From Diplonema papillatum (taxonomy: Eukaryota; Euglenozoa; Diplonemea; Diplonemida; Diplonemidae), in NCBI GenBank assembly GCA_030068145.1, contig JAPJBO010000600.1, forward strand, positions 62,001 through 126,000: 64,000 nt of DNA, written 5' to 3'. Below, one piece after another: positions 671-50,059 of the stretch; the stretch's first letter is position 1, and each line of letters begins with the position of its first letter. Made by a program: the position numbers and the translations under genes. The notes beneath the pieces were generated by a model. It did no database searches and was not told where the DNA came from. It saw only the letters and a list, made by a program, of their open reading frames with translations.

Positions 671-1646
671 GAAACGCGCGGTTTTGTTAGAAAGAAGGGA
701 GTGCCAGACCTCGTCTGTAAATGGCTCTTTTGCTTCCGAAGGACAGTCTCTGTGATGGACACTAGTGACAACCTCAAAGAGGTGCACCCTGTCGGATACA
801 TAAACGTGCAGTTGTGCCGCAACTGGGATTTTTAGTAACTCCGAGCAATTTTTGGACAGTTACGTAGGAGGAATTTTTATATATCTAGCCAAAAAAAAAC
901 AAAAAAACAAAAAAACAGCTACTTACTCATGTTGCGCTTTGCAGTGAACGAAACCGCAGTCAGCTGGTACAGCCTTACGAGGTCCATACGCGCTCCTTTG
1001 CGTCACTTTGCCAACCCGTCGGCGACACGTGGCAATTTGCTGCTTCCTTCTGCCAGCACTTGACAGGTAGTGTACAGGCAGTAGGTTTCTCAGTCTGACG
1101 ACAACCCGACAACCAGAAGGCATCTCGTTTCCAGCACGAGGCACGAGGCAACTTTCCTATTGTCTCCGCCTCCCTTCGCTCGACAGAAGCGCAGAAAATC
1201 ACTTGGGTGGCCTCCTTCCCCCCCGGGGGCCCAGAAATACCGCGGCTGTCCACCAGTTATTCGAATTCGTCCTTTTTTGCAAAATCAACGAAAACCTTTA
1301 AAAAACAATACGAGGGTGCATCCCTACCCCCCTTGCGAAGAAGGCGAGTGTTTGGGTACTTTAGCAGTGTGCCGGGATCATTCAAGAACACTTGGCAGTA
1401 ATCTGCAACAGCAGGGCGGACAGCCGCGGTCTTCGCTTTCTTGGCAACACGTACACAAGCCAGAAATACCAGCACCGCAGGCGCGGCAATTTTTTTCAAG
1501 CTATTGGGCCAGTCGCAGGTTCCAAAATTGAGGCTGTACGTTGCTTCAACGATGATCCAAAGGTGCAGTAACCGGTGCTGTGTACTGCTAGTGTGACTGC
1601 TGTACTGTAGCATTACTACTGGGCCCCTCAGCCAGGGCATTCTGTG

Positions 1647-1680
1647 CTTTTTTTTTTTTTGCTCGGACTTGGTCCGAGCA
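1647..1680 (+). other. T-run followed by a perfect small hairpin
   Basis: A run of about 14 T is followed directly by the hairpin GCTCGGAC-TTG-GTCCGAGC (8-bp stem). On the plus strand the T-run precedes the hairpin, so this is not a canonical hairpin-then-U terminator. On the minus strand it would be a hairpin followed by an A-run. Function unknown. Confidence 0.5.
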
Positions 1681-1731
1681 CCAGACCCATATATAAGCCA
1701 CTGCTAGGTACTCACACCACTGCCTTTTTAG

Positions 1732-1777
1732 CATTGAGTTCTTTTAAGTACATGAACCACATGGATTAGCATGCACT
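1732..1777 (+). repeat. Short dispersed repeat, partner at 26957-27000
   Basis: About 44 bases containing AAGTACATGAACCACATGG and ATTAGCATGCAC recur at 26957-27000 with only a few differences, in the same orientation. It is probably a fragment of a larger dispersed family whose other parts have diverged. Confidence 0.7.
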
Positions 1778-2311
1778 TTTTTTTAGCACTATTTGTGGAT
1801 TAGAAGGGTCGGCCTTTTATTTCGTCTTTTTTGGCCAGTCTTTCTGTTTTCGCCTTTTTTTTCAATTTCGAATACAACTTGATGCTTCCGGGAGTTGGTG
1901 CTCAAGAAAGAGTTGAGCCAGGGTGCTCTTGCAGGACCCCCTTGCTCTTTCTTGTCCTTTCCCCGGTAGAAGGTTTCAATCTGGCCCGTCCTGAGAAAGC
2001 CGCCACCGCGACAAGCGGGGCGATTTCTCGGACATACGAGATCAATTCAATAAGGTCATCTTTTTTATTCGTACCGTGTTGTGCTGATGGGAAGGTGTTT
2101 CACTTTTCTGGTGGTAGGCACACGTTTCTTGGAATGTTTCCAGTGAGGTTCTTCCTTTCGAGGTCCCGTATGCGTGTACAGGGTTGGGTCTTTCGACCCT
2201 TTTGCTTGTTTGTGTTCAGCTTAGTGTATGCTTTGGTGGACGGTGGCTTGATATCAATGCAAGTTCCACGAGGACCGGTGCTTGCGTTGGTCCGGGCTAG
2301 GGCTACGTAAC

Positions 2312-2533
2312 ATACCGTATTCAGAAAAACGTTGGACCGGACATACATTGGACCGGACTTACATTGGACCGGACTTACATTGGACCGGACTTACATTGGA
2401 CCGGACTTACATTGGACCGGACTTACATTGGACCGGACTTACATTGGACCGACCTGACAATTCTTGGAGCGTTTGGCAAACATGTGTGTAACTTGGGACG
2501 TTGTCTGGTCCAAAAGATTTCTGAATACGGTAT
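2312..2533. repeat. 16-bp minisatellite bounded by a 16-bp inverted repeat
   Basis: About eight tandem copies of ATTGGACCGGACTTAC occupy roughly 2331-2453. The array and about 60 bases of unique sequence lie between perfect inverted repeats: ATACCGTATTCAGAAA at 2312-2327 and its complement at 2518-2533. There are no unique spacers between units, so this is not a CRISPR array. The layout suggests a small foldback or MITE-like element whose interior has become a minisatellite. No clear target-site duplication was found. Confidence 0.85.
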
Positions 2534-3493
2534 TTTAATTCCTTGCGGACGGACGGAGACAATCTGAGGACAAAGGCAGAAGACTGCCTCGCATGCACGT
2601 TTGACGCGGGGGAAATCTGGGTGGGTTTAGTGCTTGGGCGGGAGGTGCCATGTTTGATGCTGGCGTCAAGTCTTCGAGAGAATGCACAAGTCTGATTTCT
2701 TCTTCTTATTTTCCACTTTTTCCCGACGACTTCTTTACCACGGAGGGGGTCCTCCAGAGTGCAGAAAGATTTCTGGGAGAAGCCGGGCAAAAATCAAGCT
2801 GAGGCCCCTGAAGTACGATGTGTCCCCTCCGTCCATCACGGGTTAAGTGGTTGCGGGCGCATTCAGCGGCAGCTGAAGGCGGGTGTGCTGCTGCTGGGTA
2901 TATCGATGGCAAGCCGTTTCTATACGACTTTGCGTGTGTCGTGGTTTCTTCTCCATTTTCTCTTTTCTTCCGTCCATTTTGTTAAGAGAGAGAGGGAACG
3001 GAACCTTGACAGTATTCTGAGGATGGAAGAGCCGGTATTTTAGAGTCTCCGGTTAGAGTGGGAGTCGAGTAGTAAGGGAAGGATAACGTGATTTCTCACA
3101 GAAGGGCTAGGTTGGAATTGATTTTGGTTCTGGAGAAATAAGGAAAGAAGGTTTGCGTCCGCGGCTGGGTAGTTCGTGATGCCTTCTTTGTGATTTCACT
3201 CATTCTCTTCTCTCTACCGATAGCTGTAGAGTACTCTTTCACTCTCACACTCACTTTTTGGCCAGCCAGAGCAGCAGAGGAAACTCACGCGACAGACACC
3301 ACAGAAGACAATCGCAGTGAATGTAGCCCTAGGCGAGGCAACTTTCCGCGATCCTGTACGGACCGTCTTCTTTGTTGGGCAAAGTCTGCCACGTGTACAT
3401 GGTAGGATGGCAAAACTCGGTGAAGGGGGCTTGGGCAGAGAGATTCTGGCGAAGTGCGATGTTGTGCACGTGGAGTATACACGGTGAGGTCCA
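2534..3493. other. Non-genic stretch
   Basis: No gene is supported here. At about 3030-3050 there is a weak match to the family D core (TTTTAGAGTCTCCGGTTAG). The remainder is mixed-composition sequence in which I see nothing else. Confidence 0.5.
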
Positions 3494-3622
3494 ACCTCAG
3501 AAACTGGAGTTAAAGAGGGTGTGCCCGAGTCGAGTCACACCCGAAAAGCGGGTGTGCTACACCAAGACGCATGGAAGTCCACCCGATTTTTAAACTCCAG
3601 CTTTAACTCCAGCTTCTGAGGT
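3494..3622. repeat. Foldback element with 22-bp arms, single-copy form
   Basis: ACCTCAGAAACTGGAGTTAAAG (3494-3515, read here in two parts) pairs with the sequence at 3601-3622 with one mismatch. Between the arms are short CACACCCG/CGGGTGTG palindromes. A truncated second right-arm motif (TTAAACTCCAG) lies just before the right arm, as if a duplication had begun. The same arms bound the larger element at 25851-26580, where the right arm has become a long tandem array. Confidence 0.8.
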
Positions 3623-3826
3623 GTACGGCCTATACCCTTCAGAGCCCATATTCTGAGGTCAAATAGGAGCCCAAATCCGTTCGGTGAGCCTTCTTCGAAG
3701 CATAGAACCGCGACTGTCTGGGTTTGGGACTCACAGGGTTACATACCCCACATGCACAGTATCGTACTTTGCCAGACTATTTCTCCCCCTTTTCCCTTTT
3801 TGGCATCGTCTCATCAAATCCCTGAG

Positions 3827-3927
3827 CAAGTGTCAGGCTGACCCACCCGGAAGCGGTTGATTCCGTTGGAGAGGTTTCTTGCTACCGGCGGAAGTTGCTT
3901 GGGGATAGCTCTTGTGGCTATTTTTTT
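3827..3927 (+). repeat. Dispersed repeat family E copy
   Basis: This is one of about nine plus-strand copies of a roughly 100-bp module. Its landmarks are GTGTCAG, a CCCACCCG block, GGTTGATTCC, a GTTTCT...CTACCGGCGG block and GTTGCTTGGGG(A)TAGC, usually followed by a T-run. Here the sequence ends near TGTGGCTATTTTTTTGC. No coding potential is evident. Confidence 0.75.
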
Positions 3928-4139
3928 GCTATTCGTATTTCGGGGAGACGGCATGATGGGCCTTCCATATCGATATAAAATGAAATGGTCCGGCGGCGTG
4001 CTGACGTGGACCGAAGCAGAATTCGGAGGGAGAGCAAGCAGACCGAACGGTAAGTAGTAGTTGTCGGGAACTGCCGAGCACGGCGTGCTCTTGTGTTGGT
4101 GCCGCACTTACGGGACTCGGCAAGCTGCACGGAGTACAA

Positions 4140-4480
4140 TACCAGCTGCATAATTGCAGTTACCAGCAATGCATTGTTTTCATTCATTAACAACAAAAAA
4201 CACTCGAGGGACTGCCTTGTGCTTACTCCGAAAGAGGCAAGACGGGGAGAAACAATACAACCACAAAGTGGGTCTTTTTTGTTGAACGCTTACGCCCGCC
4301 ACTAAACCCAGATCTACCTGTATTTCGTATGGGCTACAGCACATTCATCTCAGTTGATCTTGGAAAATTGTTGCGATAGTGGGGAGTCACCGGCATGCCG
4401 ATGAGTACCACACTATGCTATGCCTTTGGTCGTTCGCAACTGGCAGCCTCCTCAAGTATTTTTCCTACACAGCAGGTGCG
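4140..4480 (+). repeat. Composite of dispersed families C and B
   Basis: The left part (CAATGCATTGTT, ACTCGAGGGACTGCC) resembles family C, also seen at 18945-19060 and 38405-38515. The right part carries the family B signature: GAACGCTTACGCCCGCCAC, AAACCCAGAT, a TTTCGT(A/G)TGGGCTACAGCACAT block and a final CAGCAGGTGCGTAACAC-like end. B copies also lie near 11740, 12240, 19060, 23380, 29220, 30640 and 56330 on plus, and near 33900 and 35510 on minus. Confidence 0.7.
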
Positions 4481-4687
4481 TAACACTGCGTTTACAAAAA
4501 AAAAAGTGGCGGCAATTTGTTATCCTTTTTGGCTTTATATTTTTCCTTTGAAAGAACGGACTGCTTCGGGCGTGAAGAGGCCGTATTGTCGTACTCGGGA
4601 AAGCGCGTGTCTGACGGGATAGGTTGGCAGGTGCACGTTGGTGAGCATGCGTGCGGGGCACGCTGCCCTCAAAACGAAGAAAATAGT

Positions 4688-4800
4688 GTAGTTTTAGTTT
4701 ATTCTTTTACTTTTCGTTGTCGACAACTTTATTTACTTTCAGCGACTTTCTCATGCCTTTTGGTGACTGTAATTTGAGCTTTCTTTCTCTATCGTCTGCA
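4688..4800 (+). repeat. Dispersed repeat J, copy 1
   Basis: T-rich sequence with TTTTCGTTGTCGACAACT and a TGCCTTT(T/C)(G/A)GTGAC block matches 26822-26936 in the same orientation. A third partial copy (GTGGTCGACAACATATTG) lies near 5020-5040. Nothing coding was recognised. Confidence 0.6.
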
Positions 4801-5138
4801 CATCCGGTATGCCGACGAGTTGTGAGTGGACACGCGTCCAAGGCACTCACTTCTGTGTGTGCTGAGTGTGCACGTCCTTCAGACAAAAGGTGCACCACTC
4901 GAAGAATCTCTGGATTACGTCGAGTTTTTGAGCGTGCACGTTGATAGCGCATCAATTTCGGGGCCACTACGGCGCACGCATTTTCAGAGTCAAGTTTTGT
5001 TTAATTATTTTACTTGTTTGTGGTCGACAACATATTGTAGTTGCGGTGTCATTCAGATGAGATCTAAAAGCCGCCCACGTCAAATTTTGTGAAAAAAGCA
5101 GATGTTCGTTGACGGCTGTCCGGAAGAAACCCCGCCCA

Positions 5139-5232
5139 CCCCCCCCCCCCCCCCCCCCAGGGGGCCCCCCTAAGCGGCCAGATTGCGGAGTCGTTGGCAG
5201 AATCTGACCTGACCCCCCCACCCCCACCCCCT
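5139..5232. repeat. C-homopolymer tracts
   Basis: A C-run of about 20 bases (5139-5158) is followed within 80 bases by further C-blocks (CCCCCCACCCCCACCCCC). Similar C- or G-runs occur at 5673-5693, about 8432-8450, about 8553-8575, 10568-10603 and 42411-42429. Such tracts are slippage-prone, so exact lengths and any frame crossing them are unreliable. Confidence 0.8.
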
Positions 5233-5462
5233 ATATACAGGCTATTTTCACTGTGGAGGGGGGACGCTACCTGTCACTCTCTAAGGTGGTCACCACAGCG
5301 GGTGGTCAGAAAAAGAAATTTTTTTTTTGGCCCAAATACCCCAAAACCCACACTTTGAAAATTTTTTGTGGGCCCACTTTTGCCAGGGAATTTTGACCAT
5401 TTCACCTTAGAGAATTCGACCACCCAGTCTCCAAGGCAACTGCACTGTAGAAGGGGGGGGGT

Positions 5463-5592
5463 TTGCAAGAACGTGCTTGGAATGGGTATGTGCTCAACAC
5501 CGCACTGGTCCCGTCTGCGCCGTGTTTCGGTCCTTTAAGCCACGGACACATAAGGCGGACCATCATCAGCGTGGAACCTGAGTGTCTGCAGA
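5463..5592 (+). repeat. Dispersed repeat family K, copy 1
   Basis: Core CCACGGACACATAAGGCGGA followed by CCATCATCAGCG. Near-identical to 7850-7986, with more diverged copies at 10733-10850, 11118-11252, 27360-27470 and 55830-55935, all on plus. Copies 1 and 2 lie on opposite sides of the hAT-like pseudogene. Both are preceded by a G-tract, and upstream of that by an AAATTTTTTTT stretch with TTAGAG and ACCACC motifs. The pair may therefore flank an old insertion. Confidence 0.85.
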
Positions 5593-6006
5593 CAGGACTG
5601 CGGTGTGGGGCAGGGGGCGCACTAAGGATTGGAGGGTGCAACGGGCAACGTCAACGTCTGCTAAATTTGGAAGGGGGGGGGGGGGGGGGGGGGCCAGTGC
5701 TGATACTAAGCCTGAGACCCAAAACGAAGTTGCTAACCCTGGGTGGGGGTGGGTACCCCCCCCCCCTACCCCCCCCCCCTCCTGGTGCAACCCACTGTGG
5801 ACCTACTGTGGGACCCACCTTAGCTAAATTCTCCAAGAAGTGGGTCAAAAAATTTTTTTTTCGAGTGCTTTTTCAGGGCATTAGCTTGGTCTCCGGCCCA
5901 TTTTCCAAATTTGGACCGATAACGGCTTTTTTGCGTTTTCACTGTTTTTCTGCAATTTTTGCACTGAGTTGGCTCGCCTGCCGGTGTCTCTGCCTCCTCT
6001 CCGGCC

Positions 6007-13861: not shown

Positions 13862-15318
13862 CCATTTGTACTCCGAGGCGAGACTTGCGTCAGGACCGCT
13901 CGAAAACAGTAACCGTCGGCACAGGAACTACCGGTTCAGAAATAGATGGGATAGACCTAAATTGTGCGCACCGGCTGAAGTGCACACGTGTAGTTCTCTG
14001 GACGGCCATTCGTGCTTCGAGGTGAGTCTTTTGTCAGAACAGCTCGAGAACAGTCGAACAACCGTCGATACCAGAGGAACCACCAGGTTTGAAATGGATG
14101 GGACAGACCTAAAAAAGTGTGCACCGGCTGGAGTGCGCGCGCCGTTCTCTGGATGGTCGTCGATCGTGCCCCGAGACGAGACTTGCGTCAGGACCGCTCG
14201 AAAACAGTAACCGTCGGCACCAGGAACTACCGGTTCAGAAATAGATGGGATAGACCTAAGTTGTGCGCACCGGCTGAAGTGCACACGTGTAGTTCTCTGG
14301 ACGGCCATTCGTGCTGCGAAATGAGTCTTTTGTCAGAACAGCTCGAGAACAGTCGAACAACCGTCGATACCAGAGGTACCACCGGTTTTGAAATGGATGG
14401 GACAGACCTAAAAAGTGTGCACTGGCTGGAGTGCGCGCGCCGTTCTCTGGATGGTCGTCGATCGTGCTCCGAGAGACGAGACTTGTGTCAGAACCGCTCG
14501 AAAACAGTAACCGTCGCCACCAGGAACTACCGGTTCAGGAAATAGATGGGATAGACCTAAATTGTGCGCACCGGCTGAAGTGCACACGTGTAGTTCTCTG
14601 GACGGGCCATTCGTGCTCCGAGATGAGTCTTTTGTCAGAACAGCTCGAGAACAGTCGAACAACCGTCAATACCAGAGGAACCACCAGGTTTGAAATGGAT
14701 GGGACAGACCTAAAAAAGTGTGCACCGGCTGGAGTGCGCGCGCCGTTCTCTGGATGGTCGTCGATCGTGCTCCGAGACGAGACTTGTGTCAGAACCGCTC
14801 GAGGAACAGTAACCGTCGCCACCAAGAACTACCGGTTCAGAAATAGATGGGATAGACCTAACTTGTGCGCACCGGCTGAAGTGCGCACGTGTAGTTCTCT
14901 GGACGGCCATTCGTGCTCCGAGATGAGTCTTTTGTCAGAACAGCTCGAGAACAGTCGAACAACCGTCGATGCCAGAGGAACCACCGGTTTTGAAATGGAT
15001 GGGACAGACCTAAAAAGTGTGCACTGGCTGGAGTGCGCGCGCCGTTCTCTGGATGGTCTTCGATCGTGCCCCGAGACGAGACTTGCGTCAGGACCGCTCG
15101 AAAACAGTAACCGTCGGCACCAGGAACTACCGGTTCAGAAATAGGTGGGGTAGGCGATAGACCGAAATTGTGCGCACCGGCTGAAGTGCACGTGTAGTTC
15201 TCTAGACTGCTATTCGTGCTCCGAGAAGAGTCTTGTGTCAAAACAGCTCGAGAACAGTCGAACGACCGTACCAGGAGCTACCGCTTTTGAAATGGATGGG
15301 ATAGACCTAAATAGCGTG
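13862..15318 (+). repeat. Satellite array: about 150-bp units in about 300-bp dimers
   Basis: The landmark GACTTGCGTCAG/GACTTGTGTCAG recurs at 13882, 14180, 14480, 14781 and 15080, a spacing of 298-301. Each repeat consists of two related half-units. One has GAAAACAGTAACCGTCG and the other GAGAACAGTCGAACAACCG. Both halves share ATGGGA(T/C)AGACCTAAA, GCACCGGCTG and GTTCTCTGGA. The spacing is not consistently a multiple of three, and frames through it repeat only by virtue of the DNA. A dimeric higher-order layout with near-nucleosomal half-units is typical of centromeric or heterochromatic satellites, but at 1.5 kb this is a short block. Confidence 0.9.
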
Positions 15319-15870
15319 CACCGGCTGAGATGCCGTGGACGAGGCGGAGAGTGTGGGACTACGTTTTGGGGGATCTTTCGTTTATTTTATTTTGCCTGTT
15401 TCATCCGCGAACCAGGGCTTCTAGATCGTGTTGCAACAATCAACCGGGGAGACCTTTGGGTTGTCGACAATCAACCGGGGTCGATGTAAAGTCTGGTGTC
15501 TGTCGACGTTGCTTGTTATCCTTCCTTTTTTTTTTTTTAGCGTTTATCCATCGGCTCTATTCCCCGGTTCCCCGGGGTTTGTCCTCAGATCCACCAGCAG
15601 CGCAGTTGATGCAGAGTCACGGTGCACTGGTGCAATTGCACGGGAGTGGACACAAGCCGGTTCGGGGCCGGGGCCCTACCTTTTTTTTTTCATCTACCGG
15701 GAGACCGGCCCTAGCTTGCTGCTGGAAGTCGGCTAAGAACACCTTGAACCTTTTTTTCCTGTTGGCTCATAATGAAGAGGTTGCCGGTGCTGCACGTACC
15801 GGAGCGGGGTCGTAGTGGATTCGCTGGGACGAACCCAACGCCTCGACAGGGGCGGTCGTTGCGCGCCTCG
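15319..15870. other. Non-genic stretch
   Basis: No gene supported. It contains a short direct repeat (CAATCAACCGGGG, near 15438 and 15470) and T-runs at about 15528-15539 and 15681-15690. The 161-codon plus-strand frame across it shows no motif and runs through the T-runs. Confidence 0.5.
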
Positions 15871-24031: not shown

Positions 24032-24087
24032 CCGGGTAAAACCTGGGACACCCAGGCCCATTTTTGGGGGTCCCAGGTTTTACCCGG
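24032..24087. repeat. 17-bp perfect hairpin abutting the rRNA fragment
   Basis: CCGGGTAAAACCTGGGA (24032-24048) pairs perfectly with TCCCAGGTTTTACCCGG (24071-24087). The loop itself contains CCCAGGCCCA and GGGGG. The hairpin ends exactly where the rRNA-like sequence begins. It may be a tiny MITE or solo element end. Confidence 0.85.
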
Positions 24088-24452
24088 TTCAACATTAATG
24101 CAATTACGGTATGTGGCGCAAGCTGCTCGAGATATCTGGCGTGCTAATACATGTCCGAAGAATCCAACTCGATTCAACCCCGTGGCCTTAAAACCGCGGG
24201 TCGAGGTGGATACAAAAATCAACGCTAGCAATAGCAGCGCTGTGTGGATGAAACAGGTCAATCGAGTGATAGCACACGACTTCAAGTCGGTGCAAGCCCG
24301 CAAGAGCTTCTGCCCTATCAGCTTTTGACGGTAGTGTAGTGGACTACCGTGGCTGTAACGGGTACCGGGGAATTAGGGTTCGACTCCGGAGAGGGAGCCT
24401 GAGAAACGGCTACCACATCTAAGGATGGCAGCAGGTACGCAAATTGCCCAAT
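24088..24452 (+). rRNA. Diverged 18S (SSU) rRNA 5'-domain fragment
   Basis: The strongest part (about 24308-24452) reads TCTGCCCTATCAGCTTTTGA, a paired block, AACGGGTACCGGGGAATTAG, GGGTTCGACTCCGGAGAGGG, GCCTGAGAAACGGCTACCAC, ATCTAAGGATGGCAGCAGG and CGCAAATTGCCCAAT. These are near-universal eukaryotic SSU rRNA motifs with scattered substitutions. Upstream, CATTAATGCAATTACGG and GTGCTAATACATGTCC align in order with the earlier helices. A conserved stem is intact here as ACGGTAG/CTACCGT (24328-24334 with 24344-24350), with a C-G pair where most eukaryotes have U-A. Sequence after about 24455 no longer matches, and the gene's first part is missing. It is therefore a fragment, most likely a pseudogene or an rRNA-derived mobile segment. 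Confidence 0.85.
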
Positions 24453-25850
24453 AGCAATGGTGAGATTTGGAAATGGGGTATCCCCAGATTCCCGATTTCT
24501 CTCAAAAAAGTTTGCAAGTCGACTCCTTGCTAGCACGAGTAGCCGAGCTTGGCAATGTAGAGCACATAGGAATCTCTCTGCTGAGGCTTCGTTGCGCTTC
24601 TCTCCGCTGTGCTTTGAGCATCATAAGCGGAGACCAGTTTATCTGCCTCCTCGGCCCCCGCCCGTTTATGATTTGCGGGACCTTTTGTCTTTTTCTGCTT
24701 CGTTGGTGGGTTTGCCCTGTGCTATTTGGACACGGCGCACCCCCGCTGCGCGCCCCTACTGACGCGCGGTGCTCTTTTTGTCGAGAGATTGGAACGCGCG
24801 CACTAGCGGAACTCGCCTGCTTCGGCAAGTTTCGTGTTTTGGAGGCGCGTGCACATTCTTCCTTTTGGGTTTCTCCCCTCGGGAAATTGTTTGTGCGTAT
24901 GCGCTATCACCTGTTTTAGGTAATTTCCGCAGTAACGCTGCCATCCGTCACTTTTGATGATGACACCTGCGGTTGCTACCATGAAAAACGATGTTTGGAG
25001 GGGTGGAGCAGCCTTCGACGCACGCGAGACGAACGAATCTCGAACGCGTTGAACGACGATCTAGGCAGAGGGGGGGCGGGGGGAGGGCGATACGTAAGAT
25101 TTATTTTCTCATTTTTTTCCCCTGTGTCGGCGGGCTCGCCTGCGGTGAGGAACTTGACGTCTTGAATGGCAACGCTGAGAGATCAGGTTAAGCGCGGGTT
25201 AGCGGCGGGAGTATCTATGACTCTCTTAGAGCCGAAAGCCTCGTCTTTCAATTAAAGACACGCGCGAATGGACACCAAGGCACCACGGAGGTTCCTTTTG
25301 CCCTGTGTGACCTGACTATCTCGCAAAACAGCAAGGTTGCGGACTTGAAAGTGTCAGCGGGAAAAGAAGACCTTGCGTAGAGGGTTGACTCTAGTTTGAC
25401 TTGCACTGCAGTGGCGACACGTCTTTGTGGGTGGGTATTGATTTTCATATCTGTACCGACTTCTGTCGGCTGAATGAAAGAGAATTCGTGGAGCATGCCG
25501 CAAACCCTGCAGAGGTTTGAAATAGTGACACATTGACAATACCGTTGACTGTGTGGGCAGTCCTCGAAGAAAGGGTTGACCCTTGGAACGCTTCAGGCCA
25601 TTTTCTTCGTGCAGTCGTCTGGAAAGCTGCTGATCCGGCCGGGACGGGTAGGATCTGGGGAGCGTAGCACAAACTGAAGAAGTCGAGTCAACTACACCCC
25701 TGCAGGATTCGCATGCTTCCATTGAGGGGGGTGCTTTTGTACGTAACGGTTGATCGTTTCCACTTGTTTTTACCCTATTTCGTTTTCAGGTCAGGGGTCG
25801 CAGCCCCTGGGGTGCGAACGATCTCCGCAACTCGTGTACGCTGTGGTATT
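24453..25850. other. Non-genic stretch
   Basis: No convincing gene. Family C-like fragments occur at 24792-24840 (CGCACTAGCGGAACTCGCCTG) and 24893-24990 (ATCACCTGTTTTAGG, ACGCTGCCATCCGTCAC). Near 25745-25790 a piece of repeat M appears (GGTTGATCGTTTCCAC). The 150-codon plus-strand frame at 24467-24919 crosses these repeats. Confidence 0.45.
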
Positions 25851-26580
25851 CAGCCTCAGAGGCTGGAGCTAAAGAGGGTGCCCGAGTCTAGTCACACCCG
25901 AAAAGCGGACGTGCTGCAACCAAAACGTGTGTACATCCACACCTGAAAAGCGGGTGTGTCGCCCGCTTTTTTAACTCCAGCTTCTGAGGCTGGACTCCAC
26001 TGTGCTTTTAACTCCAGCTTCTGGGGCTGGACTCCACTGTGCTTTTAACTCCAGCTTCTGGGGCTGGACTCCACTGTGCTTTTAACTCCAGCTTCTGGGG
26101 CTGGACTCCACTGTGCTTTTAACTCCAGCTTCTGGGGCTGGACTCCACTGTGCTTTTAACTCCAGCTTCTGGGGCTGGACTCCACTGTGCTTTTAACTCC
26201 AGCTTCTGGGGCTGGACTCCACTGTGCTTTTAACTCCAGCTTCTGGGGCTGGACTCCACTGTGCTTTTAACTCCAGCTTCTGGGGCTGGACTCCACTGTG
26301 CTTTTAACTCCAGCTTCTGGGGCTGGACTCCACTGTGCTTTTAACTCCAGCTTCTGGGGCTGGACTCCACTGTGCTTTTAACTCCAGCTTCTGGGGCTGG
26401 ACTCCACTGTGCTTTTAACTCCAGCTTCTGGGGCTGGACTCCACTGTGCTTTTAACTCCAGCTTCTGGGGCTGGACTCCACTGTGCTTTTAACTCCAGCT
26501 TCTGGGGCTGGACTCCACTGTGCTTTTAACTAAAGCTTCTGGGGCTGGACTCCAGCTTCTGGGGCTGGACTCCACTGTGC
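25851..26580 (+). repeat. Foldback element with one arm expanded into a 37-bp array
   Basis: The left arm (AGCCTCAGAGGCTGGAGCTAAAG, about 25851-25873, quoted as two abutting motifs CAGCCTCAGAGG and CTGGAGCTAAAG) and the interior (CACACCCGAAAAGCGG, GCGGGTGTG) match the compact element at 3494-3622. From about 25967 the right arm plus spacer (TTTTAACTCCAGCTTCTGGG then GCTGGACTCCACTGTGC) is repeated about 16 times with a 37-bp period and very little variation, to about 26577. The first unit retains the ancestral CTGAGG form; later units have CTGGGG. The final units are rearranged (AACTAAAGCTTC and a truncated copy). Confidence 0.92.
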
Positions 26581-27470: not shown

Positions 27471-28785
27471 TCAGCTGGGGGAGAAGGCCCCGGTGACCGT
27501 GTCTGAGGGGTCGGTCAAAAGACTCTGCACAGGGGCGCTCGCCACATTTGTGGCTGCGCCTCGCCAGAACGCACCGACAAGGATCCTTTGCACACGGCGG
27601 CAAACTGCTGGTCATTGTGATTCGCAGCAAAACTCCGCGAATGGCGCCAAGGAACTCGGATCCTCTGTTTGTGTTGAGGAAGCGTCGCTGGAAAACAATT
27701 GCTCTGCGCCGCCCCCTGAACCCTACCTGTTCGGTTGTGTTAATCAAGTGACTTAACTTGACTGGATTCCCACAGAAAACTTCGAGAATCAGTCGGCGCA
27801 GGGGTCATGAGCAAGAACGGGCAGAAGAGGGAGATTATGTACTATGTACTCGAGGTCCGACGACCCCGCAAGCGTACAGATTGGCGTAATTCGACATTGC
27901 AATGTGCTCCAAAAATGTAAGCCTGAGCAATGAGCGAACCAACACCAAACTGAAGATCATGTCCTGTCACAGTTTACATGTCCGTGCTTCACATGGAGAT
28001 CCCTAACTCAAGACATACAAGGTGAAAAAGAAGAGGGGGGGCGGGTTGCGGCTTATACGCGAAGTACCGTGAGGGGAATGTTTGTTTGTGTTTGGGCAGA
28101 ATCCTGTCTCCGTGGGTAGCGAGGGCGGTCAACATCGGTAAAGAAGGACCTGCCGCATGCGCCCGCTGCCGCGCGAGTTGTGGAGGGCCGGAAGAGGACG
28201 GATATCAATGCAGGGCTTACGCTCCACGTGTGGATTTCCACACGTCTTTTTTTTTTTTTGTGTCTCTAACAAGTTAGTCTCTAACAAATGCAATTTGTCA
28301 AGAACAAAAACAGATCGATGGCAGCGTACTATCCTCACTCCCGTTAGATGAACAACACAGGTTTGAAGGAAGTGCGCACAAACAAACCACGCAAACTACA
28401 CTCCACGTGTGGATTTTCCCCCCCACGTGTGCTTCCACGTGTGCTTGCTACAGGCTGGTCCACATGCAGCCAAAAGTCGCCAAGGCCGCACAGCCAGGTG
28501 TCGCCATCAGCGACGCTATTTCTTTGCCCGCCGGACATAGGAAAAGGGGGGTTTTTTTTTTTTCATCGAACCTGAAGCGTCCACATGTGAACCACACGTA
28601 TTTTCTCTGAGACCAAAAACGGAGCGTAAGCTATCTGTGCTTAACCCCTTGCGGGCCGAGGGGGGCAGGGTTGTCCAGGGCACGGAAGCCTTCTGAGGAA
28701 GCTCTGGGTCAAACTCAGGAGCTTCATGACTCCAAAAGGGACTTCGTAGTGGAAAAGGTTTCGTAGCGCATCTATTCACGCGCCC
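27471..28785. other. Non-genic stretch with C-type repeat
   Basis: No supported gene. At 28262-28372 a module with AACAAATGCAATTTGTCAAG, ATCGATGGCAGCGTACTATC and CACTCCCGTTAGATGAAC matches 44808-44925 in reverse. CCACGTGTGGATTTCCACACG (28224-28244, a palindrome) and several CCACGTGTG motifs at 28403-28445 form a small cluster. Confidence 0.5.
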
Positions 28786-29115
28786 CTATACCCAGCTTTG
28801 ACGAGCGATTTGCACGTCAATACCGCAACGGACCTCCATCAGGGTTTCCCCCGGCTTCGTCCTACCCAAGCACGGTTCACCATCTTTCGGGCCCCAACAG
28901 GTGTACTTAACCTCAAATCCCTTTCCAGTAAAACAGGATCGGATTTGCTGCGTCCTCAAGGATTGGCACATCTTCTGGTGGCATCACCCTGGAGACTCAA
29001 GTGTCCAAACACACCAACTTATGGTTATGCTATTTTCGACATCAATGTATGCCTCCCGTAAAGGTCCACCCTGTTGGACTGCGTGACGTTGCCTGCCGCT
29101 GCACGCCACATTTCA
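28786..29115 (-). pseudogene. Degraded ORF, unknown family
   Basis: On minus a single frame stays open for about 110 codons except for one TGA. It reads REAYIDVENSITISWCVW then TLESPG, stop, CHQKMCQSL and continues through TGKGFEVKYTCWGPKDGEPC to a stop at 28786. Its Cys, Trp and Gly spacing is protein-like. No family is recognised. The internal stop and the repeat-rich setting suggest a decayed element gene. Confidence 0.35.
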
Positions 29116-35815: not shown

Positions 35816-36710
35816 AGGTCGTCGCCGTCGTCGGTGCTCTCGTACTCCGCTGTGGCATAGCGTAACGCTAAGTCGCAGCGCAGTAGAGAAGGCACACGAG
35901 TGCACGGCAGAGGTGGAGTTGTGGTGAAGGCAAAAAGTACTGGTGCTCTTCTTGCTGCGCGAGTCCTCGCGCAGGTTTCCTCCCAAAATCACCAGCATCA
36001 GCGCAGTCCGTTGTAGCCCAAATCTGCACTATTTGTAACCTTGCTGGGGGCGGGTTTGTGATCACTCGGACACCTAAGTCAGCTCTCGGTACATCCCGCG
36101 TCGCCAGTCCTGCCTACCAGAAGTGGCCCACTTAGAACCAGGATTCTACGTCAGGGTTCAATGAAGTAACCCCGAGCTCACGCCCATTTAAAGTTTGAGA
36201 ATAGGTCGAGGAAGCGATTTCCCCAATGCCTCCAATCATTCGCTTTACCTGGCGTAACTCCTGTTTCGGTTCTAGCTATCCTGAGGGAAACTTCGGAGTG
36301 ACCAGTTGCTAGAATGGTTCGATGAGGTTTGCTTTCGGAAACGACTTTTAAGGCGCTCGATACACCGTGTCGGTTTCGCTCTTCACCTTCCACCTCTCGC
36401 GGGTTCCCTCATTTTATTCGAGGTGGATCCCTTCTTTTTCCACCGCTTTGAGTTTTCCGACCATCGCCGTGTGGGTGCGCAGATCGGCTTTTGACTGGTT
36501 TGTTTGTTTTTCGACCTGCATGCTTTTTTTGGCTGGTGGGATTTCCGGCGGTTGGGGAAGGCCGGGTTTATCATTTATCGTGTACCTACCCTCCCCCAGG
36601 CATCTTGTTAAGAACCACCCACTGAACAAAGGGCACGTCGTGCGGATATAATAATGTGGGCCATAACTCGATTGGCTTCTTCTCGGCTGCTTTTTTTTCC
36701 CCCCCGCGCC
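35816..36710. other. Non-genic stretch
   Basis: No gene supported. A weak family D-like segment (GACCATCGCCGTGTGGGTGC, GATCGGCTTTTGAC) lies at 36458-36500. TACCTACCCTCCCCCAGGCA at 36582-36601 resembles one end of the MITE at 33327-33552. Confidence 0.5.
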
Positions 36711-45672: not shown

Positions 45673-45920
45673 CGCGTGTGGGGTCCGTTGTTATTGGTGC
45701 TTGTTTGAGGGATACGGAAAAGACAAGAAATATTTGATTTTTGCGGTCGTCTCCGTCGGTCCGGTAGTGTGCTACCTCCGTTATTTTACACTCGTTCTCT
45801 TTTCATCTCACTACTACTGAACGTACTCTTTCACTCTTTTACTCACTTTGGCTCGCCGGATGTAGTACGACTGGGATGGTATCCCAATCCACGTTCGGTA
45901 GATCCATTTGTTCTAGGGTA

Positions 45921-47612
45921 GGCACAGCCGGCATATTTTTTGTTGGAATAATTAGCTTATGGCCACCAAGAAACTTTTTATTTAGCTTATAGCCACAAAA
46001 AACTTTTTATTTAGCTTATAGCCACGAAAAACTTTTTATTTAGCTTATAGCCACGAAAAACTTTTTATTTTGCTTATAGCCACAAAAAACTTTTTTATTT
46101 GCTTCGAGCCACATTTTGCAAATTTTTGGTCATTTTCCTGAGTTGGCAAAATTTTGGCCGAAACTTTGGTCGATTTTTTGGTCGAATTTTTGGTCAAATT
46201 TTTGGTCAAATTTTGGTCAAATTTTGGTCGATTTTTTGGTCGATTTTTTTTGGTCAAAATTTTGGCCGAAATTTTGGTCAATTTTGGTCTACAATTAGAC
46301 TCCAATCCCTGAGAACACACCCATGGCGGGATTCGAACCATTTACCCAGCCATTGACTGTGACAACTGTGCGATTTGGATTCGAACTCAAGTTTCCAATT
46401 TCAAGTTTCAAGTTGCAAGTTTTAAGCTTCAATGTGTGGGATACGTTTGGGGGAGTCAAGGTGATTCTGGGGTAGCGTCTAATCTCATCCCATTTCAACT
46501 TTGCATAGGTCTCGTTTACTTGGACCCCCTTTCTGCCGATTTGCGACTGCCGACTTGCGGCGCAACACTTTGGCAACCATTGCGTTGTTAACTCTCTTCA
46601 TCAGATTCCTGCAACCCGGCGGCATCTGGACGGCCGTAGTGGGAGCAAGGGGTGCAACACGCTAAAAGACCGGAAGTACCGGGCATGCATGTTGCGAGCA
46701 TACGGGTGCTGAAAGAGAAACCGGGAAACATGATACATAGCTCGCAGAGTTCAGACCAGGGTACTTTTCGGTGACACTCTCTTTAACGCAAACGGCGGCA
46801 AGCTCTTTGTGGACGATTTTTCAAGTCGGTTCTTATGTAGCCTTCGGGCGTAAACACACGCGTTAAAGAGAGTGTCACCGAAAAGTACCCTGGTCTGAAC
46901 TCTGCGAGCAATGTATCATGTTTCCCGGTTTCTCCTTCAGCACCCGTATGCTCGCAACATGCATGCCCGGTACTTCCGGTCTTTTAGCGTGTTGCACCCC
47001 TTGCTCCCACTACGGCCGTCCAGATGCCGCCGGGTTGCAGGAATCTGATGAAGAGAGTTAACAACGCAATGGTTGCCAAAGTGTTGCGCCGCAAGTCGGC
47101 AGTCGCAAATCGGCAGAAAGGGGGTCCAAGTAAACGAGACCTATGCAAAGTTGAAATGGGATGAGATTAGACGCTACCCCAGAATCACCTTGACTCCCCC
47201 AAACGTATCCCACACATTGAAGCTTAAAACTTGCAACTTGAAACATGAAATTGGAAACTTGAGTTCGAATCCAAATCGCACAGTTGTCACAGACAATGGC
47301 TGGGTAAATGGTTCGAATCCCGCCATGGGTGTGTTCTCAGGGACGGAGTCTAATTTTAGACCAAAAAAATTGACCAAAATTTCGGCCAAAATTTTGACCA
47401 AAAAAAATCGACCAAAAAATCGACCAAAATTTGACCAAAATTTGACCAAAAATTTGACCAAAAATTCGACCAAAAATTCGACCAAAATTTCGGCCAAAAT
47501 TTTGCCAACTCAGGAAATGACCAAAAATTTGCAAAATGTGGCTCGAAGCTAATAAAAAAGTTTTTTGTGGCTATAAGCTAATTCTCCCAACAAAAAATAT
47601 GCCGGCTGTGCC
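45921..47612. mobile_element. 1.7-kb foldback element (near-perfect palindrome)
   Basis: The left arm (45921-46789) and right arm (46860-47612) are reverse complements over their whole length, around a 70-base loop. Outer ends are GGCACAGCCGGCATATTTTT and its complement. Inner ends are CTCTCTTTAACGC and GCGTTAAAGAG. The left arm is longer because a 29-bp repeat (TTAGCTTATAGCCAC then AAAAACTTTTTAT) is present about five times (45950-46090) but only about once on the right. Both arms contain TTTTTGGTCAAA-type short repeats. There is no credible ORF; the Phe/Trp/Gln-cycling frames are repeat products. Long arms with internal subrepeats are the hallmark of foldback-type elements. No clear target duplication was seen. 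Confidence 0.93.
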
Positions 47613-48285
47613 ACATATTTTTTGTTTGTGTGTACGTGTGTAAACCCTGTTTTGAGTGATTTAACACAGCACGCTGCCATCCGACACTTTTTGATATAGA
47701 CAAGCAAGCTTGTTACCATAAAAAACAGACAAGACAGGCGCTTCGTTTTGTTTGTGCGTGCCGGTTGATCGTTTTCCCACTTGTATTTACCCTGTGTGTA
47801 TTCAGGTAAGGAATTCTGATCAACCACCAAAACACGCTGCCTACGTCTTTTCAGCCTGCACAATACATTGAAGGGCAACCCACAAGATTGTTAGTACTAA
47901 AAAAAGACTCTTGTGGCATGCGCGGGTGTCCGTGATTCAAAAACAAGCCCGGTTCTGTTTCCCTGGCTCTCAAATAATAGGAACGAGTCCACTGGGGGCA
48001 AACGACACCATTGGGAAGTGAAGCACTTCCGCGTACACCAGACGCATACGGGTCGACCACCGATGTTACTAACAAATGGATGATCAAGCATGGGATAACA
48101 AGAAATCAATATCTTCGAATCGTATTGTTCGTCTCTAACCCCGAGAGAAGGAAATATCAAAACCGAAGTCCGTAGCGGTTCTCTCTTGAGTTTCGTCTTT
48201 GCGCGGGATCACTGAATACAAGTGTTCCTGGTCGAACGTTTGTTGCGCACAATCGACACGGGTAGGTGTACGATTTTCCGCTATT
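47613..48285. other. Non-genic stretch containing repeat M copy 2
   Basis: 47660-47740 has a C-like segment (CACGCTGCCATCCGACAC). 47737-47900 is repeat M copy 2 (GCGCTTCGTTTTGTTTGTG to GGCAACCCACAAGATTGTTA). The remainder up to the HRD1 stop shows nothing further, although it could include a 3' untranslated region or an additional exon of HRD1. Confidence 0.6.
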
Positions 48286-50059
48286 TTAAAGCAAGAGCAG
48301 TTCCTCCACCTCTCGCTCCCCTCCGGGTGGATTCTGTTCGAACCACAGCAAACATACCGCGAGCTCGTCTTGCGTGGTGGCAGGTTCTTGCACCGCAGGT
48401 GGCTCTTCTGCTGCGTGCGGCTGTCCGCGGGAGACGTCGATCGTTTGCCGGCAGTATGGACACCTGTCGTCGTGTTTTGGATTCTCTCGATTCTATGTAG
48501 AGTGAATGCTCTTGGGCCTCTTGACTCCGAGAAGAAGAAAGCCAAGACTGAAACTTCCGCATCGGCGCTCTTTTTTTGAACTCCGTCAAGGCCTCGTTCC
48601 GCGTTCTGCACATCTACACCACAGAGGTAAAACTCTTCTTCGACCGCAGGAAGACGACGTGAGGCGATGCCACAAGGGGGGGTTTGGGCAGAAGGATTCT
48701 GCCTGTGCAACAACCAACAAAGACCGCTAAACCCAGAGAAACGATACGACGCCCACAAGTTCGGTTCTGGGTATGGTTGCCTGCCCGGTGGACCTCATCC
48801 TACAGGAAACCTGTAGGGAGAGAAGAGAGAGAGAGCAGCGAGCGAGAGTCTCCATGGATACCCTGTGCTCCTGAGCGCAACACCTCCATCGCCAATCTTC
48901 TCCAGTCCAGCCTCAGGTGCTGAAGCTAGAGCTGGAGTAAAAGCGGGTCCCACACCCACTTCTCGCGTGTACCATGTTGTATTTTCCACGCTGTTCTCTC
49001 GTTCGTGCGTTCCGAGGTGATCAACAGCCAGAACAAGCGTGCGGGCACTTGCAAGGAGGAGCTTGACAAAGCAAGAAAAGGTGCACACGTAGTCTGCCTC
49101 TCGAGCCACTGTCGGAGACAGTGACGGTGGAAGATATGGCCGCAGGCGAGCTTCTTCGCGTCTCCCGCAAGCAAGTCGTCGAAACAAATCGAGCAGATCG
49201 GCTCGTTCGAAAGGTCGTCTTCGGACGCGTTGGGGAAGTTGGTGTCGAGGTGGAGCGCCAGACGCCGGTAGTTCAAGAAGTTGCAAACGGTCCTGTAAAC
49301 CCGGCGGATGGAAAGCAGCGAATCGCGAAGCAGGTTGAACGGCAACCCGTAGAACGCCGTGATCGTGTACAAGAAGCTGAAGCAGATGATGAAGCGCAGC
49401 GACTCCGTAATGATCTCGAGGTAGAACCGCGCCGCGCCTTTGCCCTGCCACCGGCGGTTTCGGCGGGCGTCGACCAGGTGAATGATCAACCGCACCAGCG
49501 AAGACACGGCGTACACCGCCATGACCATGAACTCCTCGAAAAGCAGCAGGCGGACGGAAAGACCGTTGGCCAGCATGTCGGCGACGAATATACGCCCGGC
49601 GGCGCAGTCGACGAGGATGAGGAGGAACAGAAAGAGCGTCAGCCGCAACTCGCCCGTTCCGATGGCAGGCGTTTGCTCTATGAACTCCAGCCGCGACTGT
49701 GCGAGCCAGTGGAATATCTTGCACAAGACGCATATGACGAACAACGCGACTGCACGTATCCCGTAGCGCTCGCCGAAGATGGTCAGTGTCATGAAGATCT
49801 CCATCAAAAAGATCGCAACGTTCTCCCTGACCCGCTCGATCTCTTGGTCCCGCAACTTCCCGAGGAAGATGACCCGCACGATCTCGAACAGAGCGTACAC
49901 CAACACGACGTACGTGTTCATCATCAGCACATTGAACAGCTGGTTCTGGCTCAGCGCCACCACCGACGGATAAAACTGCCTGTGGTTGAAAAAGGCTGAC
50001 GCCACAACGACCCCAAGCACCCCGGTGCTCACCAGGGAGTATATAGTAAACTTCCGCAT
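48286..50059 (-). CDS. HRD1: HRD1/synoviolin-type ER membrane RING E3 ubiquitin ligase (two exons)
   Basis: Role (family knowledge): HRD1 is the membrane ubiquitin ligase of ER-associated degradation, moving misfolded proteins from the ER for proteasomal destruction. Seen here: exon 1 (50059-49089) encodes a multi-pass N-terminal half with about six hydrophobic segments (near residues 7-25, 42-66, 82-97, 103-120, 138-160 and 170-196, with another near 217-238). It has the HRD1 landmarks FYPSVVALS and KIFHWLAQSRLEFIEQTP, then a RING-H2 with Cys289, Cys292, Cys306, His308, His311 and Cys314. The last two RING cysteines appear only after splicing: donor AC/GTGTGC at 49088, acceptor CAG/GTGTCC at 48464, giving QTTCPYCRQTI (Cys325, Cys328). 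Exon 2 (48463-48286) ends the protein at 382 codons. GTATGT after the codons for DELA could be a second donor, so a longer C-terminus is possible. The tail is shorter than in animals and fungi. Confidence 0.9.
48464..49088 (-). other. Intron of the HRD1 gene
   Basis: GT at 49088-49087 and AG at 48465-48464 on minus. Removing about 625 bases keeps phase (split Thr codon AC/G) and restores the RING C-P-Y-C pair. Reading through instead gives ...TTCAPFLALSSSS and a long tail that loses the last zinc ligands, so splicing is strongly favoured. The intron includes a GA-rich stretch (48816-48852). Confidence 0.85.

Follow-up and report, generated by a model that had tools for sequence, protein, structure and literature searches.

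The palindrome at 45921-47612 of the window (the 64,000-nt stretch of Diplonema papillatum DNA analysed here; features lie on its plus strand unless marked otherwise) is most likely an in-place repair scar in a single copy of a Mutator-like element (MULE), and not the architecture of a transposon family. In the explanation that we consider very probable for the locus as a whole, a MULE inserted normally, and in-place repair or a template switch then yielded an inverted copy of its left half together with part of the flank. The copy itself is best classed as one aberrant member of a multicopy MULE family. We regard the locus as a readable snapshot of a MULE turning into a hairpin: the source family, a transposase-bearing partner, the target site, the junction and the duplicated flank are all present in one assembly, and the sequence reveals nearly every step except the pathway.

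In a gapped alignment, 45921-46789 pairs with the reverse complement of 46860-47612 with 739 matches and 11 mismatches around a 70-base spacer. Thus, the near-perfect palindrome with a 70-base loop described in the sequence-only reading, made before any database search, is borne out, and the pairing does end at 45921 and 47612. Given the length over which the arms pair, a chance match is ruled out. In this alignment, the right arm has three gaps (117, 1 and 1 nt) and the left arm one of 3 nt, and the mismatch count varies with the alignment chosen (12 in 725 positions, or 11 in 750 with the flanks included). The inner arms (46306-46789 and 46860-47343, 70 nt apart) are 99% complementary over 484 nt; the outer segments reach 95% (46121-46285 with 47366-47530) and 89% (45921-45982 with 47551-47612). 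Tandem Repeats Finder delimits a 29-bp subrepeat array in the left terminal repeat (45952-46113, 5.6 copies), which siblings also have, and a 12-bp GGTC-rich subterminal array (46149-46289, 11.9 copies), which has its mirror at 47372-47502. There are five 29-bp units in the left arm and one in the right, and the 117-nt gap in the right arm equals four units plus one base. The earlier description of about five copies in the left arm as the sole large asymmetry is therefore accurate. A stretch resembling a pol III B box was also spotted by eye near 46330.

The genome searched comprises 271 Mb in 2,910 contigs. A 511-base query from the left arm returned at least 44 matches at no fewer than 40 places (40 scored of 118 first-look candidates), while a 33-base core pattern gave 112 matches with up to 3 mismatches, two of which are the palindrome arms and about 110 of which lie elsewhere. 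Hence, the search for further copies with the arm sequence, as proposed earlier, succeeded, and with them the true ends and the 9-bp target duplications of the element were found. Forty loci were examined: the window's own and 39 fetched from the roughly 110 other core matches. Ordinary copies (L010, L014 and L019) start with GGGATAATTAGC, or nearly so, and end with GATAAAAAGCCC; they carry 29-bp units at both ends in inverted orientation, with 9-bp direct duplications outside. We take the element ends beginning GGGATAATTAGC to resemble the maize Mu end.

Target duplications were tabulated in 42 rows, which represent the 40 loci plus extended versions of two of them. An exact 9-bp duplication is present in all 16 rows with both canonical ends, although two of the 16 are homopolymers and only weakly informative; ten rows have no recognisable 5′ end, and the remaining non-scored rows show no canonical 3′ end within the part fetched. 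A 9-bp duplication is also found in L046, whose ends are exchanged. The 15 two-ended copies, excluding the complete transposase-bearing one, measure 1,376-1,620 bp in 12 cases and 1,853, 2,291 and 3,105 bp in the others. MULE target-site duplications are mostly 9 bp long, and the two-ended copies of this family have duplications of that length. The accessible part of a report on Aedes aegypti MULEs gives 8-9 bp (PMC5225508).

Several copies show irregularities of other kinds. In L034, L046 and L047, which apparently form a subfamily, the interior is flipped with respect to an element end, and the breakpoints are similar. Self-comparison uncovered an inverted repeat in L025 (663 bp, 88.5%), located downstream of the core, and one of 256 bp (97%) in L017, the latter with one arm outside the element; the core is involved in neither. 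A search of an ordinary copy against Rfam gave 32 matches, none reaching the gathering score of its family, and a plasmid search gave no match.

The sequence-only reading had called the palindrome a foldback transposon. This is right insofar as the copy belongs to a multicopy DNA transposon whose long inverted terminal repeats are made of tandem subrepeats, as in foldback-type elements (29-bp units at both ends and the 12-bp array at the left end), but the palindrome is not the architecture of that transposon. An inverted duplication of the core occurs at one of the 40 loci examined, namely the window copy (L048 has a second core piece in direct orientation), and the pattern spanning the junction at 46859/46860 has one forward and no reverse match genome-wide with up to 3 mismatches. 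The left half of the element, 45945-46859, is colinear with siblings such as L010, L014 and L019, which run on into different sequence at the point matching this junction; even the unpaired spacer (46790-46859) is ordinary element sequence, found in the same place in ordinary copies. If the palindrome were itself the mobile unit and had inserted as such, its two left-type ends in inverted orientation would be accounted for, in keeping with the foldback-type ends of the family. Yet no direct 9-bp duplication abuts both ends, and the flank is inverted for 24 bp. Taking these points with the unique junction, we rejected the palindrome as a mobile unit and consider this origin very improbable.

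The evidence for formation in place comes from the insertion site. The left flanking DNA at 45921-45944 lies outside the element ends of siblings and includes, at 45936-45944, the left copy of the target 9-mer, TTTTTTGTT, in the position where sibling duplications abut the element. Pairing goes on beyond the element end for 24 bp of this flank, whose exact reverse complement, target 9-mer included, occupies 47589-47612 (minus strand). The ends of pairing, which the earlier reading had taken for transposon, are hence flanking DNA for the outer 24 bp on each side. Past the inverted flank there follow one extra base (A, 47613), CATA, a direct copy of TTTTTTGTT at 47618-47626 and the normal continuation of the host repeat. 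In other words, the uninserted target site restarts at 47614-47626 and is continuous with the right part of the high-copy repeat hit by the insertion (47614-47910; at least 52 matches, with 40 of 2833 first-look candidates scored), and the direct second 9-mer of the window copy is displaced by the inverted flank. A pattern representing the uninserted site has 127 genome matches with up to 3 mismatches, 44 of them exact, and L059 and L061 align straight through the joint of the two flanks, as joined by script, at 90-91%. The inverted flank therefore argues that the palindrome arose in place; together with the uninserted target beyond it, it argues that a normal insertion came first and that the site gained the inverted half afterwards.

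The following course of events would account for this arrangement. A non-autonomous MULE with subrepeat-array ends would have inserted in the high-copy host repeat with a 9-bp target duplication, a step supported by homology. Later, at the same site, break repair or a replication template switch may have deleted or skipped the right half of the element. An inverted left half (46860-47588, minus strand, from 46789 back to the element end) would have replaced it and continued through 24 bp of the left flank, and the junction would then have led back into the uninserted target, at a point 4 bp upstream of its 9-mer. The pathway that we infer is fold-back synthesis or template switching, ending on the uninserted chromatid. 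During the event or afterwards, the right arm would have lost four 29-bp units, and both arms would then have accumulated substitutions.

Several points weigh against this account. By inspection, microhomology at 46859/46860 amounts to at most 1 bp, which leaves no visible sign of a classical intrastrand snap-back. To account for the extra A at 47613 and for the CATA, one has to postulate an uninserted template, and no such template is observed at this very locus. Finally, since the host repeat is dispersed, the flank might in principle derive from another repeat copy. As to the pathway only, the scarcity of microhomology keeps the end joining of a captured fragment a serious alternative: the stretch 45921-46789 could have been captured, inverted, at a break inside the element without any fold-back synthesis, which would also suit the unmatched base at 47613. 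However, such a capture requires a free fragment with exactly these ends, and template switching explains the restart at the uninserted target equally well; we therefore give it appreciably less than an even chance.

Another copy bears on the proposed switch to the uninserted chromatid. In C8 (L062 with L041), the right end of the element is lost, and a T run is followed by a 221-bp direct copy of the left flank (99.1%) that leads into uninserted target sequence. Among the testable rows of the 42, a comparable flank copy is present in C8 only. Downstream matches to the left flank also occur in L010, L020, L021, L028 and L029, all five of which retain exact 9-bp duplications, and these matches are read as tandem, short or unrelated repeats. 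The two cases, the window copy and C8, suggest that repair may switch to the uninserted chromatid.

Inverted chimeras arise in some library types, and a junction almost without microhomology would be in keeping with an artefact of the library or the assembly. Nevertheless, the divergence between the arms speaks against it, with 11 substitutions over 750 aligned bases and the 117-nt indel, and so does the right side, where the host repeat continues as it should. We thus regard an artefact as highly unlikely. Two substitutions, at 46671 and 46688, are common to the arms; they co-occur in both and in no other of the 112 core matches. Being private to this copy, they indicate that the arms are copies of each other, made after the element split from its relatives. 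A substitution at 45947 is confined to the left arm, and an apparent arm difference at 46068 arises only from the way the unit loss was aligned. When polarised over the whole arm, the differences number about 5 on the left and 7 on the right; within 46301-46789, all 5 fall on the right arm, a bias that is only suggestive of error-prone synthesis of that arm.

The sequence-only reading had further proposed that the array grew after insertion, and that the high arm identity reflects a recent origin or ongoing arm-to-arm conversion. In 20 aligned siblings, the left array has five units in 13, four in three, three in three and two in one. Since siblings thus carry 2-5 units, mostly five, the asymmetry is best read as a loss from the right arm with no gain in the left, and growth of the left-arm array was rejected because the array is present in siblings. 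Conversion was likewise rejected. Arm divergence across 46301-46789 is 1.02% (5 of 488 sites), as against 0.48% pairwise among 19 siblings (L011 left out), and the one long stretch in which the arms are identical, 46405-46713, is near-invariant among those 19 siblings as well (0.14%), so that conversion is not needed to explain it. A recent origin can be accepted to the extent that the compared copies are all very similar, and the MULE family is read as young. These comparisons give no reason to date the palindrome after the spread of the family.

Some relatives of the window copy appear to encode the transposase. In a profile search with PF10551 (150 of 245 candidates scored), seven of the 11 best matches, at 68.5 bits each, fall in fetched core-bearing loci (C8, C496, C828, C988, C1740, C2020 and C2301). 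The frame in the C8 copy, with 63.6 bits for PF10551 and 36.2 bits for PF00872, extends uninterrupted between two stops (positions 1158-4749 of the copy), its upstream part including flanking DNA. C496 and C8, the only copies extended beyond the fetched stretch, are 99.9% identical across the left 3.7 kb. The C496 copy is complete: it measures 4,854 bp, has arrays at both ends and a PF10551 match of its own, and is flanked by two copies of TATAAATAT. One internal deletion (C8 positions 1119 to 4164), with which most of the transposase frame is gone, is common to 26 of 31 shorter copies, the five without it being L014, L034, L043, L046 and L047. Hence, the ordinary copies look like deletion derivatives that multiplied.

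The C-terminal part of the transposase (L041 frame 1-2820) presumably resembles an OTU cysteine protease by motif; its only Pfam match, PF10275, is not significant (E 0.33). A 1.86-kb insertion lies within the MULE copy of L018 (165-2026) and contains a 384-aa frame with a weak tyrosine recombinase match (PF00589, 26.3 bits against a cut-off of 27.1); it is perhaps a Crypton-like element. Downstream of the family copy, L018 has a second, different MULE transposase frame (3914-6001; PF10551, 43.8 bits). C142, beside L023, has a PF10551 match of a similar score class (48.3 bits), and no family matched the portion of its frame that lies inside L023.

MULEs with subrepeat ends are already known, in the accessible parts of the reports on Muta1 and Tm1. 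Muta1 and its relatives in Aedes aegypti, of which Muta1 is classed as a type 2 foldback element, share with the window family 8-9-bp duplications, long terminal repeats, short subterminal tandem repeats and many non-autonomous derivatives with variable repeat numbers; their subrepeats are of 9-15 bp, in contrast to 29 and 12 bp here, and the available portion of that paper contains no mention of a palindromic copy (PMC5225508). The Tm1 Mutator/Foldback elements of root-knot nematodes are similar in their composite repetitive terminal repeats, their mostly 9-bp duplications and their transposase-bearing and MITE-like members. However, according to the excerpt available, they have other terminal motifs, and their MITE-like class has inverted-repeat interiors throughout the class, as opposed to a single repair scar (PMC3169594). 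Galileo of Drosophila also has long, repetitive and changing terminal repeats, but the accessible sections place it in the P superfamily, with 7-8-bp duplications in D. willistoni (PMC3573991, PMC4168063).

As for the palindrome itself, human fold-back inverted duplications show the same unduplicated single-copy spacer, which is the signature of the fold-back model. In the part of that study available, they are large and have short inverted sequences at the spacer boundary (PMC3907307), whereas the window duplication is of about 0.87 kb and no clear inverted sequence was seen at its junction. Among the literature matches listed, judged by titles and abstract openings, there was no MULE palindrome with an inverted flank, although this does not prove that none exists.

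The closest likeness in shape is to Mu killer (Muk), the maize MuDR derivative, as described in the available portion of its report (PMC3440606). Muk is an internally deleted, part-duplicated MULE with both ends derived from one end and an inverted duplication, and the window locus likewise has a duplicated element end around an inverted duplication. The two differ in other respects. The arms of Muk hold about 1.3 kb of mudrA transposase sequence, whereas those of the window copy are terminal and contain no transposase coding sequence. The centre of Muk could not be sequenced, while the window junction and the history of its flank are readable. Muk silences MuDR, whereas the window locus, which resembles it in shape, is only a candidate silencer.

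The palindrome is probably without a function of its own at present, a static scar. A transcript of it, as modelled by folding, would be a highly stable hairpin that corresponds to the left-end region in the relatives: the predicted fold of the palindrome (1,692 nt) has -1444.5 kcal/mol, far more stable than that of a sibling (1,620 nt), with -601.1 kcal/mol. By analogy with Mu killer, in which two copies of one element end likewise surround an inverted duplication (PMC3440606, as far as the accessible text goes), the locus could act as a silencing locus, its transcribed hairpin giving rise to small RNAs that would silence the MULE family in trans. Both Piwi-domain proteins (8 matches, five of them evenly spaced along a single contig) and an RdRP (two neighbouring matches, taken to be exons of the same gene) are encoded in the genome, and a SYVN1-like gene frame (48926-50059, minus strand) points to the palindrome from 1.3 kb. 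These proteins, the stable fold and the facing gene make silencing by a hairpin transcript possible. However, about 165 nt separate the end of the left half from the transposase stop, so that no transposase coding sequence is included (46859 corresponds, through L010, to about position 992 of the C8 copy, where the frame ends at about 1158), and the similarity of the siblings suggests recent activity of the family despite the locus. Moreover, in the available text on Mu killer, the antisense transcripts associated with silencing start within the locus, with no read-through from a flanking gene (PMC3440606), so that the nearby SYVN1-like gene is weak support. We therefore consider this function doubtful.

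Slightly more doubtful still is a wider proposal on the same analogy: that the locus may be a naturally arisen Mu killer-like trans-silencer, produced by a single aberrant repair event and directing small RNAs to the ends of about 110 relatives, and that switching to the uninserted chromatid would make such scars repeatedly. If small RNAs come from the locus, it would provide a second system for silencing begun by a chance inverted duplication; otherwise it counts as an ordinary repair scar within a young family of transposons. In the genome, C924:13568-37564 contains five Piwi-domain frames of equal score at a spacing of about 5.78 kb, apparently a tandem Argonaute array.

Elsewhere in the window, very abundant short repeat families flank the palindrome at 45676-45858 and 47614-47910 (1533 and 2833 first-look candidates, with 40 scored each); both are possibly SINE-like. 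No tRNA was found in a search of the window. Fragments of nuclear-type rRNA genes occur in both orientations, at 24062-24428 and 25152-25269 on the plus strand and at 28746-29021 and 35978-36297 on the minus strand. The last 287 bases of the SSU piece are 94% identical to other genome copies (40 of 1473 candidates scored), some of which are about 7.63 kb apart, and the scattered fragments thus look like rearranged rDNA pseudogene material. Two tandem arrays are also present, one of a 299-bp unit repeated 4.9 times at 13871-15327 (92% matches) and one of a 37-bp unit repeated 15.8 times at 25969-26554 (99% matches).
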